Source: Methanocaldococcus lauensis
GTDB taxonomy: Archaea > AGJL01 > Methanococci > Methanococcales > Methanocaldococcaceae
Length of the DNA: 64,000 nt
Direction of reading: 5' to 3'
NCBI GenBank assembly: GCA_902827205.1
Contig: LR792634.1
Span: forward strand, 186,001 to 250,000
The translations under genes were made by a program, and so were the position numbers. Positions 6,180-37,459 of this stretch are shown piece by piece. The notes under the pieces are model-generated. The model saw only the letters and a program-made list of their open reading frames with translations, made no database searches and had not been told where the DNA came from. Each line of letters opens with the position of its first letter. Position 1 is the stretch's first letter.

Positions 6180-6995
6180 ATGTTTGCTCCGGGGCACATA
6201 ACTGGATTTTTTGCAGTGCATAAATCAAAAGATACATTAAAAACTGGATCTATAGGGGCTGGAATTACTGTAAATAGAGGAGTAAATCTTAATATAGAAG
6301 AAGGTAGTGGAAATATATATTACAATAAAAAAAAAGTAGATATATGTTCAGTAAATAAAGTATTAACATACTATGAAAACTTTGGATTTGATAAAAATAG
6401 CTATGACATATTTTTTACATCTGACTTTCCATTAGGCAGTGGTTTGGGGATGTCTGGTGGCTGTGCTTTAACACTATCTAAAAAATTAAATGAAATGTTG
6501 GATTTAAAAATTAATTATGTTGAAATAGCACATATTAGTGAAGTAGAATGTGGAACTGGTTTGGGAGATGTTATTGGCCAATATGTGAAAGGTTTTATTA
6601 TAAGAAAATCTCCCGGATTTCCTATAAATGTTGAAAAATATACAATTGATAAAGATTATTATATAATTATTGAAATATTTGGAAAAAAGGAGACTAATAA
6701 AATAATTACCAACGATAAATGGATTGAAAAAATAAATGAATTTGGTAAAAAATATTTAAATGAACTATTAAAAAATCCAACATTAGAAAACTTTATAAAT
6801 CTCTCATATAAATTTGCAGTTAATACAGGATTAATTAATGGAAATATTTTAGAACTCTGTAATGATTTAAAATTTACAGTAGGAGCTTCTCAATCTATGC
6901 TTGGAAATACTTTATTCTGTATTTCAAAAAAAGATACTCTAAATGATGCTATTTCTATTTTAAAAAATCCAATTGTTTGTAAAATTTACTATTAA
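6180..6995 (+). CDS. Pantoate kinase (GHMP family, archaeal CoA pathway)
   Basis: Phosphorylates pantoate to 4-phosphopantoate, the archaeal route to coenzyme A in place of pantothenate kinase. The 271-residue protein starts MFAPGHITGFF and carries the GHMP ATP-binding motif PLGSGLGMSGGCAL (about 84-97), with a C-terminal FTVGASQSMLGNTLF resembling GHMP motif 3. The start is ATG after GGAGGTTATTGT. Its last 4 bases overlap the stop of the convergent methyltransferase gene. Confidence 0.9.
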   Translation: MFAPGHITGFFAVHKSKDTLKTGSIGAGITVNRGVNLNIEEGSGNIYYNKKKVDICSVNKVLTYYENFGFDKNSYDIFFTSDFPLGSGLGMSGGCALTLSKKLNEMLDLKINYVEIAHISEVECGTGLGDVIGQYVKGFIIRKSPGFPINVEKYTIDKDYYIIIEIFGKKETNKIITNDKWIEKINEFGKKYLNELLKNPTLENFINLSYKFAVNTGLINGNILELCNDLKFTVGASQSMLGNTLFCISKKDTLNDAISILKNPIVCKIYY

Positions 6996-35450: not shown

Positions 35451-36539
35451 ATGCAATATATTTATCCATTTACAGCAATTGTAGGACAGGAAAAGATGAA
35501 AAAAGCTTTAATTTTGAATGCGATAAATCCAAAAATTGGAGGAGTGTTGATTAGAGGAGAAAAAGGGACTGCAAAATCAACTGCCGTTAGAGCATTGGCT
35601 GATTTACTTCCAGAGATTGACGTTGTTGAAGGTTGTCCCTTTAACTGTGACCCTAATGGAGAACTATGTGACATTTGCAAAGAAAAGAAGAAAAAAGGAG
35701 AATTAAAAATAACAAAAAAGAAAATGAAAGTTGTAAATTTACCAATAGGGGCAACAGAAGATAGAGTTATTGGAACTCTTGATATTGAAAAGGCAATAAG
35801 AGAAGGTATTAAAGCATTAGAGCCAGGAATTTTAGCAGAGGCAAATAGAAATATTCTATATATTGATGAGGTTAATTTACTCGATGATCATATAATAGAT
35901 GTTTTATTAGACGCGGCGGCAATGGGTTGGAACATAATTGAAAGAGAAGGAGTTAAAATAAAGCATCCTTCGAGTTTTATACTCGTTGGAACTATGAATC
36001 CCGAAGAGGGTGAGTTAAGACCGCAAATATTAGATAGATTTGGACTAATGGTTGATGTTGAAGGATTAAACAATGTTAAAGATAGGGTAGAGGTTATAAA
36101 GAGAGTGGAAGAATTTAATAACAATCCTGAAGAGTTTTATAAAAAATTTGAAGAAGAGCAAAAAAAAGTTAGGGAAAGAATAATCAAAGCCAGAGAGATT
36201 TTAAAGGATGTTGAAATTAGTGATGAACTTTTGGAATTTATATCTAAGGTTTGTATTGAGTTGGGGATTCAAACTAACAGGGCAGATATTACAGTAGTTA
36301 GAACTGCTAAGGCAATAGCGGCATACAATGGTAGGACAAAAGTTAATTTAGATGATGTTAAGGAGGCTATGGAGTTAGCATTGCCACATAGAATGAGAAG
36401 AAAACCATTTGAGCCACCACAATTAAATAAAGAAAAATTAGAACAGATGATTAACGAATTTAAAGAACAACTAAATAATAATGAAAATAAAAATAATGAA
36501 AAAAATAATGAAGATGACTTAAAAAAAAACATGATGTAA
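35451..36539 (+). CDS. chlI: Chelatase AAA+ small subunit (ChlI), zero-frame product of chlD/chlI gene
   Basis: A 362-residue AAA+ ATPase of the Mg/Co-chelatase ChlI/BchI family: Walker A GEKGTAKS (about 36-43), a BchI-type cysteine insert [40 protein letters not shown], sensor [14 protein letters not shown]. It then enters an Asn/Glu/Lys linker and stops (TAA 36537-36539) just after an A9 run. The next frame continues without interruption into the VWA (ChlD) domain, so this is either the separate small subunit or the product when no frameshift occurs. Expected partner is CobN for cobalt insertion; not in this window. ATG follows GTGATAATT. Confidence 0.9.
36524..36530 (+). promoter_or_regulatory. 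Slippery heptamer A AAA AAC for -1 frameshifting
   Basis: In the ChlI frame the codons are TTA AAA AAA AAC ATG ATG TAA. A AAA AAC fits X XXY YYZ exactly. Slippage by -1 gives CAT GAT GTA AAT..., which stays open to the VWA stop. A 6-pair hairpin TTCTGA/TCAGAA (36556-36571) lies 25 bases downstream. Transcript slippage on the A9 run, or a fixed frameshift mutation, would look the same. Confidence 0.7.
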
Positions 36540-37459
36540 ATGATGATATAGAAGATTCTGAAGGTTCAGAAAGTAATAATGAAAATAACAATGATAATGG
36601 AGAATTTGAAGAAACTTTTAACATAGATTACAACACTAAAATTAATCCAAATATAATAAGATTTAAAGTTAGAGATAACATTTACAGATATGGCTCTGGA
36701 AGACATATAAAAAGTTACAGTAAGAGAGGAAGATATATTAAATTTAAATATCCAAAAGGAAAAGTTACTGATATTGCATTTGATGCTACATTTAGGAAGG
36801 CATCTATAAAACAGAAAGAGAGAAGAAAAAAATCCAATAAAAAACTGGCAATATATTTAGAGAAAGAGGATTTAATGGAAAAAGTTAGAGAAAAAAAGAT
36901 TTCATCATATATATTATTTGTTGTTGATGCCAGTGGTTCTATGGGAGCAATGAGAAGAATGGAGGCGGCAAAAGGGGCTATAGTTTCTTTACTCTTAGAT
37001 GCCTATCAAAAGAGAAATAAAATAGGAATGATTGCATTTAGAAAGGATAAAGCTGAGTTAATTTTACCATTTACGTCTTCTGTGGAACTTGGAGAGAAAC
37101 TATTAAAGGATCTCCCTACTGGTGGAAAAACACCATTAGCTGATGCATTTGTTAAGAGTTATGAAGTTTTTGATAGAGAACTAAGAAAAAATCCAAATAT
37201 TATTCCAATTATGATAGTAATAAGTGACTTTAAGCCAAATGTCGCTATAACTAAAGATTACATTAAAGAAGTTTTTGATGCTTGTGAAAAAATTGCTGAA
37301 AGAGAAATTAATGTTGTATTAATAGATACTGAACCACAGTCATTTATAAAAATTGGTATTGGTAAAGAACTTGCAGATAGATTTGGCTTTAAATATTACA
37401 AAATAGATGATTTGAGTAAAGATGCAATAGTAAATATATGTAAAGATCTTTTAAATTAA
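36530..37459 (+). CDS. chlD: Chelatase medium subunit region (ChlD linker and VWA domain), -1 frame
   Basis: Open from the A9 run without any start codon until ATG 36875. It encodes a continuing acidic Asn/Glu/Asp linker ([20 protein letters not shown]), a basic segment ([25 protein letters not shown]) and the ChlD/BchD-type VWA domain with MIDAS motif VVDASGSMG, then [11 protein letters not shown] and ISDFKPN. Joined to ChlI through the frameshift it gives a 669-residue ChlID, the normal size of methanogen chelatase medium subunits. An independent gene starting at 36875 would lack half the linker and has no ribosome binding site. Confidence 0.85.

Follow-up and report, generated by a model that had tools for sequence, protein, structure and literature searches.

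A probable programmed -1 frameshift between ChlI and ChlD of Methanocaldococcus lauensis, compared across its order

Introduction

Frameshifting by -1 in Mg-chelatase genes of Methanocaldococcus and Methanococcus is described in the accessible text of PMC3711429 (2013), which reports a cluster of 23 chelatase frameshift genes. In E. coli, cassettes of three genes shift at 63, 40 and 10% with runs of 11, 9 and 7 As, respectively, and the nine-A cassette, written there as A_AAA_AAA_AA, has the run and phase of the site analysed here. Known as fs-chlD in that paper and in PMC9227772 (2022), whose accessible portions both name Methanocaldococcus, the gene is the same as ours, with the same -1 direction and a poly-A site. 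According to the accessible portion of PMC9227772, fs-chlD signals are "usually" accompanied by structure, whereas the order studied here has no conserved downstream structure; and the available part of PMC5009743 gives the conserved motif as A_AAA_AAR, whereas the last codon of the site here is AAC in 21 of 24 orthologues. Two reviews, as far as their available text goes (PMC8211752, PMC5009743), count it as one of the few archaeal cellular genes that are likely to be frameshifted. The available portion of PMC8037382 (2021) repeats the suggestion and says that the gene's mechanism has had no detailed study.

Other described systems resemble this locus more distantly. The dnaX gene (tau/gamma) likewise yields two products with a shared AAA+ N-terminus from one gene with an A-rich site, and both one-ORF and two-ORF arrangements are reported (PMC3711429, accessible text). 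Its function is unrelated, and its default in E. coli is the long product, whereas the default in the window is the short one; two orthologues in our set, L026 and L029, share the polarity of E. coli dnaX. In Saccharolobus solfataricus, fucA1 is an archaeal cellular gene with a -1 frameshift at an A-AAA-AAT heptamer (PMC8211752, PMC8037382, available portions). It is a different gene, for which those portions describe a stem-loop and rare codons, whereas chlID has no conserved structure. The NCBIfam family TIGR02442, putative cobaltochelatase, has the same domain order, but as an in-frame fusion in 43 loci elsewhere among the matches listed.

A first-pass annotation, made from the letters alone, had proposed that a -1 slippery site fuses ChlI to ChlD. 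The evidence supports that reading; the proposal is sound but already known, being in print for the genus (PMC3711429, accessible text). A six-A form of the site, a constraint on its AAC codon and a flip of polarity were not found in the literature searched, and Antonov 2020 (Mol Biol Evol) might describe the six-A form or the flip. The same search found nothing on a chlD frameshift in Methanothermococcus and nothing on slippage of archaeal RNA polymerase at homopolymers. Nor did it find anything under MJ0441, which we take to be a locus tag. Two concrete hypotheses emerge from comparing the order: a ribosomal slip at A AAA AAC that needs no stimulator, and a flip of polarity that arose naturally.

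Architecture of the chelatase locus

The window is the whole stretch of 64,000 nucleotides analysed, from contig LR792634.1 of M. lauensis; all features below lie on its plus strand. ChlI, the small AAA+ chelatase subunit, occupies the zero frame at 35451..36539, running from ATG 35451 through 362 codons to a stop, with GTG 35430 as an alternative start that would give 369 aa. TIGR02442 matches it at 532.5 bits over profile positions 1-350 of 641 (the whole-protein cut-off is 779.45), and TIGR02030 at 443.1 bits, slightly below its cut-off of 466.95. Among solved structures, it lies closest to the ChlI chains 8osf and 6l8d and to 1g8p, the 38 kDa subunit of Mg-chelatase. The -1 frame, at 36518..37459 with its stop at 37457-37459, encodes the remainder of an acidic linker and the VWA (integrin I) domain of ChlD. 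It gives a Pfam VWA_2 match at E 2.5e-12 and a TIGR02442 match of 260.1 bits over positions 361-641, and the nearest solved chain to its VWA part is the Mg-chelatase 60 kDa subunit in 2x31. Since the two matches cover positions 1-350 and 361-641 of a single profile, the two frames are halves of one known protein; joined by the shift, they would form a 669-aa ChlID counted from ATG 35451.

A low-complexity linker rich in N, D, E and K (36447..36680, ends approximate) varies between species and holds a conserved A-run inside. Scanning the -1 frame for ATG, GTG and TTG finds none upstream of 36875, so the linker has no start of its own. At the junction, the ChlI frame reads GAC TTA AAA AAA AAC ATG ATG TAA, with T at 36520, nine As at 36521-36529 and C at 36530. 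Within the slippery site TTA AAA AAA AAC (36519..36530), the canonical heptamer A AAA AAC spans 36524-36530 and overlaps with a second heptamer, A AAA AAA, which spans 36521-36527, and the zero-frame stop TAA (36537..36539) lies two codons past AAC. The A9 homopolymer (36521..36529) is a possible site of transcript slippage too. Re-reading the letters bears out what the first-pass annotation had stated: the ChlI frame runs into TTA AAA AAA AAC ATG ATG TAA, the -1 frame is open to 37459, and the product sizes of 362 and 669 aa agree with the coordinates from ATG 35451. A AAA AAC also stands in X XXY YYZ phase as described there, with A AAA AAA in phase as well, and the architecture as a whole is real.

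A-rich heptamers are common in this window, which has 29% GC. In the 63 ORFs that reach 80 aa, the in-phase counts are 6 for AAAAAAC, 39 for AAAAAAT and 44 for AAAAAAA, and a -1 shift gains at least 60 codons only at the chlID ORF. Across both strands of the 1.48 Mb genome, TAAAAAAAAAC has 2 copies and the backwards pattern likewise 2, so the motif alone is not over-represented. The run by itself therefore proves nothing; its conservation does. The only other sense-strand A9 in the kept window ORFs lies at 6327-6335, within the ORF 6180-6995, where shifting by -1 does not open a frame of 60 codons.

Conservation across the order

The phylum set comprises 36 genomes, 26 of which have a ChlI match at E <= 1e-40. 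The VWA half follows in the -1 frame in 24 of these and in frame in two (L026, L029). Counts of 24 orthologues include the window's gene and leave out L033 and L034, which are divergent (55 and 53% identical); L012 and L014 are one gene split over two contigs, and L014 is not counted again. All 24, the two fused genes included, carry the A-run in one codon phase. Its length is A9 in 19, A11 in L007, A10 in L012 and A6 in L030-L032, and the heptamer is A AAA AAC in 21 orthologues, A AAA AAU in L032 and A AAA AAA only in L007 and L012. As in described fs-chlD genes, a ChlI-like frame is overlapped by a -1 ChlD half without a start, an A-rich heptamer is present (24/24), and the window's own genome combines a single ChlI match with three CobN homologues.

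At the level of sequence, codon choice is the strongest test of this conservation. All 24 orthologues spell the site's last Lys codon AAA, compared with an average of 65% AAA in 10 near-invariant ChlI Lys columns, none of them all AAA. Its Asn codon is AAC in 21 of 22, compared with 27% AAC, and a maximum of 12/24, in 7 near-invariant ChlI Asn columns. Naive binomial values (3e-5 for the Lys codon, 2e-11 for the Asn codon) ignore shared ancestry, which makes the mixed ChlI columns the fairer control.

A stop lies 0-4 codons past the slippery codons in 22 of 22 unfused orthologues, and in 10 of the 22 it comes directly after the Asn (or last Lys) codon. dN/dS in the VWA frame is 0.04-0.13, which indicates purifying selection, for 10 of 12 pairs; the motif search missed the VWA in L024, L028 and L030-L033. 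In the 24 unfused loci, here with L033 and L034, the overlap between the frames measures 10-46 nt, and the first -1-frame start in relatives lies 36-513 nt past the stop, at a place that is not conserved. A ChlI search of the window's own genome gives one match only, without a separate chlI.

The genus comparison that the first-pass annotation had called for agrees with its reading: the A-run is conserved across genus and order. The synonymous constraint it proposed looking for is visible in the AAA and AAC counts, and none of the patterns it had listed against itself, such as close relatives with an unfused frame and no A-rich run, is seen among the 24 orthologues.

The divergent chlID copies L033 (G017) and L034 (G014) also have the VWA in the -1 frame. 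L033 reads TCT AAA AAA AAA CGG, nine As in another phase, and L034 is similar. L033 sits on a long branch beside fused genes of Thermoproteota/Archaeoglobaceae (100/98 and 99/94); judging by this placement, it may be an independent frameshift case, possibly acquired.

Two orthologues with joined frames

L026 (G021, 681 aa) and L029 (G024, 648 aa) carry ChlI and VWA in one frame. Both retain CTA/TTA AAA AAA AAC in unchanged phase, and a -1 shift there would yield products about the size of ChlI (356 and 359 aa). The two group with the unfused A9 row L025 (97/96; 100/96 in the larger tree), and L027 joins these three next (100/99 in both trees). Because L026 and L029 are nested with unfused L025 and L027, the fusion is derived. 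A tree constrained to keep L026 and L029 together is not rejected (AU p 0.44), and L025 joins L026 only weakly (88/17); the frames may have been fused once or twice. L025 and L026 align without gaps downstream of the site, and L026 has one extra base between AAC and the shared TCTGAA, as judged by eye (the aligner placed the gap upstream of the run). In a four-row alignment, L029 is three bases shorter than L026 there.

L026 and L029 are separated by about one synonymous change per site, and the chance of both having AAA AAA AAC is about 0.04 by a rough hand estimate from codon-pair counts. No other ChlI was found in either genome: G021 has two further matches at 9e-5 or worse, and G024 three at 8.5e-9 or worse, in ORFs taken for other AAA+ proteins. 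G021 keeps cobN in two copies, of which one lies 478 bp from chlID, and no cobN was detected in G024.

These sequences are suggestive of a polarity flip. We tentatively propose, as an idea somewhat short of probable, a two-way product switch in which a small indel immediately 3' of the site would make ChlID the default and a -1 shift at A9C would then produce ChlI. If the shift runs at about 40-50%, such a flip would hardly alter the I:ID ratio, which would explain both its tolerance and the survival of the site. If the flip is true, the I:ID ratio would be what selection holds. Quick -1 stops were also considered as evidence of inverted sites in fused genes and were rejected, as 91-92% of nearby codon positions reach a -1 stop within 8 codons. 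Since such stops are nearly ubiquitous around the site, only the retained A9C counts for the flip, and the background of A-runs in the fused linkers of other lineages reduces its weight.

Homologues in other lineages

A GTDB r220 scan shows at least 80 loci, none of them titled as belonging to this order, and near relatives may be missing from it. A crude frame test of 80 loci among the matches listed finds 43 in-frame fusions, 17 loci without a VWA match, 3 with separate genes, 10 with the VWA in the -1 frame ("fs-1?") and 7 with it in the +1 frame ("fs+1?"). Only L090, L098, L107, L111 and L117 are counted as frameshift sites; the VWA matches of the others lie 530-1821 nt off and resemble neighbouring genes. 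Five Chloroflexota loci among the matches listed have short-linker -1 sites with A-runs. In the Chloroflexota loci L107, L111 and L117, GTA AAA AAA AAG stands near the end of the ChlI frame at 55-60% GC, nearly the archaeal site with G for C.

The larger tree has 64 rows and includes 16 of the 25 rows of this order. The AU test rejects a single clade of the five Chloroflexota loci and the order's 15 rows (p 0.0018), a grouping that was defined only once the tree was in view. Strongly supported branches alone force at least three state changes among the 64 rows. Together, these results fit repeated origin. Repeated loss from a frameshifted ancestor, as proposed in the accessible portion of PMC9227772, is a possible history as well.

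Fused genes elsewhere rarely carry a comparable site. Between -30 and +450 of the ChlI match end, 33 of the 43 fused genes among the matches listed have no in-phase AAAAAA heptamer, 10 have an in-phase AAAAAAN heptamer, and TAAAAAAAAAC occurs in none of the 43. Runs of at least nine As are found in 4 of these 43 (L046, L063, L068, L100), none followed by C. Candidate inverted sites are not claimed: the run of L046 is shorter in L047, and the A AAA AAG shared by L051 and L052 is absent from their neighbour L115. In the Lokiarchaeota loci L063 and L068, A10G and A9G, at +139 and +145 counted from where the ChlI match ends, have the same phase and a similar position, and the third row of that clade, L073, has A7 only, in another phase. 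The L063 and L068 runs reflect either chance or another inverted slip site.

Fused genomes that lack a slip site had been expected to have a stand-alone chlI gene, and this expectation failed. Among the matches listed, 4 of 43 fused genomes (G038, G047, G066, G075) have a second ChlI-size gene at E <= 1e-50, G051 has a 203-aa ChlI fragment, and none was found in the remaining 38, many of which are MAGs. Two products are thus not generally required. Separately, the ChlI-like frame of L120 (archaeon Dive96_bin2.169) ends GGT AAA AAA AAA AGG TAA, with a VWA match in the -1 frame 738 nt past the ChlI match, which represents either a frameshift or a neighbouring gene.

Mechanism of the shift and alternative explanations

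The gene very probably uses a programmed -1 frameshift to make two chelatase products. Some ribosomes would terminate at TAA 36537 and release ChlI, the small AAA+ subunit. Another sizeable share would move back one base with Lys-tRNA and Asn-tRNA on A AAA AAC, or alternatively with two Lys-tRNAs on the overlapping A AAA AAA, and read on through the linker and VWA domain. The product would be ChlID, a medium subunit with the same AAA+ module, and ChlI and ChlID would together drive a CobN-type chelatase as its ATPase motor. The earlier proposal of one gene giving both ChlI and ChlID fits the conservation, the synonymous constraint, the purifying selection on the -1 frame and the lack of a separate chlI. 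We infer from these features that the shift occurs in this archaeon, and the I:ID ratio and the metal are to be read in the same conditional way. Several observations count against the frameshift reading: no conserved structure, few Shine-Dalgarno-like words upstream, an A9 run that suits transcript slippage, fused genomes elsewhere that mostly lack a further ChlI-size gene, and no nearby cobN in the genome of the window (G000).

RNA stimulators were considered and rejected. Folds downstream of the site are on average no more stable than shuffles, with a mean z of +0.25 (50 nt) and +0.05 (90 nt) over 24 loci and lowest values of -1.97 (L023) and -1.65 (L009), and no conserved downstream RNA structure was found in these loci. 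Shine-Dalgarno-like words upstream of the site occur in only 7 of the 24 and are not conserved. Slow termination at the adjoining stop might help the slip.

The identity of the slipping machine turns largely on one clade. L030 and L031 read TCA AAA AAC TAG and L032 reads TCA AAA AAT TAG, so the heptamer, its X XXY YYZ zero-frame phase and the adjacent stop are kept without a homopolymer of at least eight, which 3 of the 24 orthologues thus lack. This A6 clade (100/100) sits among A9 rows and joins two of them in the larger tree (98/94); from its nested position, the long run was probably lost and the heptamer kept. Alternatively, RNA polymerase could add one A at A9, so that a share of mRNAs with A10 encodes ChlID in one frame. 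Runs of A9-A11 in 21 of 24 orthologues suit such slippage, and in the accessible text of PMC3711429 Thermus dnaX slips at nine As and the efficiency of chelatase cassettes rises with run length. That text also gives eight As as the usual minimum, however, and the A6 clade falls below it. Moreover, 21 of the 22 Asn codons at the site are AAC even though near-invariant ChlI Asn columns more often use AAT, and either codon would end the run equally well. Retention of the six-A heptamer thus favours ribosomal slippage and, together with the preference for AAC over AAT, the tandem slippage of two tRNAs. The first-pass remark that A9 also permits transcript slippage holds for the run itself, but the comparison shifts the weight to the ribosome; polymerase slippage is an unlikely, if serious, account, and the ribosome is probably what slips.

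A frame break at the run might merely have been tolerated, with slippage restoring some ChlID and ChlI as a by-product. In favour of this, 43 of 80 loci among the matches listed are fused in frame and 38 of those 43 come from genomes without a stand-alone ChlI, so ChlID alone can suffice elsewhere; runs of at least nine As also occur in 4 of the 43 fused linkers anyway. Against this, none of the 22 unfused orthologues has its ChlI stop more than four codons from the site, and the site persists in two frame-joined genomes about one synonymous change per site apart, a point that is suggestive only, given the estimated chance of about 0.04. We regard this account as rather improbable. Alternatively, ChlI and ChlD might be two separate genes, with translation of ChlD beginning on its own or coupled to that of ChlI where the frames overlap; the overlap of 10-46 nt in the 24 unfused loci is one that coupled genes can have. 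With no -1-frame start before 36875, and with first starts in relatives 36-513 nt past the stop and unconserved, this arrangement is very improbable. Homopolymers are error-prone, which could point to a sequencing error or a pseudogene; that explanation, of negligible probability, is already refuted by comparison. Run and frame relation repeat in independent genomes, the -1 frame is under purifying selection, and an A-run of identical phase in the same-species genome (L003) and 22 further orthologues excludes a sequencing error.

CobN partner and function

Gene neighbourhoods point to the partner of this putative motor. Coordinates for 21 genomes show that 14 of the 26 have a cobN no more than 5 kb from chlID and 3 more have one at about 11 kb; in G009, G014, G024, G030 and G034, cobN is missing either from the contig of chlID or altogether. 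G000 has three CobN homologues, none near chlID. Co-occurrence over the 36 genomes is weak, with cobN present in 24 of the 26 that have a ChlI match and in 8 of the 10 that lack one; adjacency is the better evidence. Given cobN within 5 kb in 14 of 26 genomes, ChlI and ChlID most likely power a CobN-type chelatase.

An aerobic B12 route is doubtful for a strict anaerobe. In the accessible portion of PMC9227772, Methanocaldococcus fervens is assigned small and medium subunits for cobalt chelatase, with the aerobic B12 route marked, and the available text of the review PMC5009743 leaves the ligand open.

Some genomes depart from this pattern in their CobN genes. G015 and G016 have CobN homologues in open frames of 1660-2128 aa and no ChlID was found there, so their large subunit either has no ChlI/ChlID motor or works with another partner. 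In the genome of the window, one of the three CobN homologues (G000:C1:1164825-1167881) contains an internal TAG, and copies in G003 and G005 are in pieces, which suggests decay of a CobN copy in several species.
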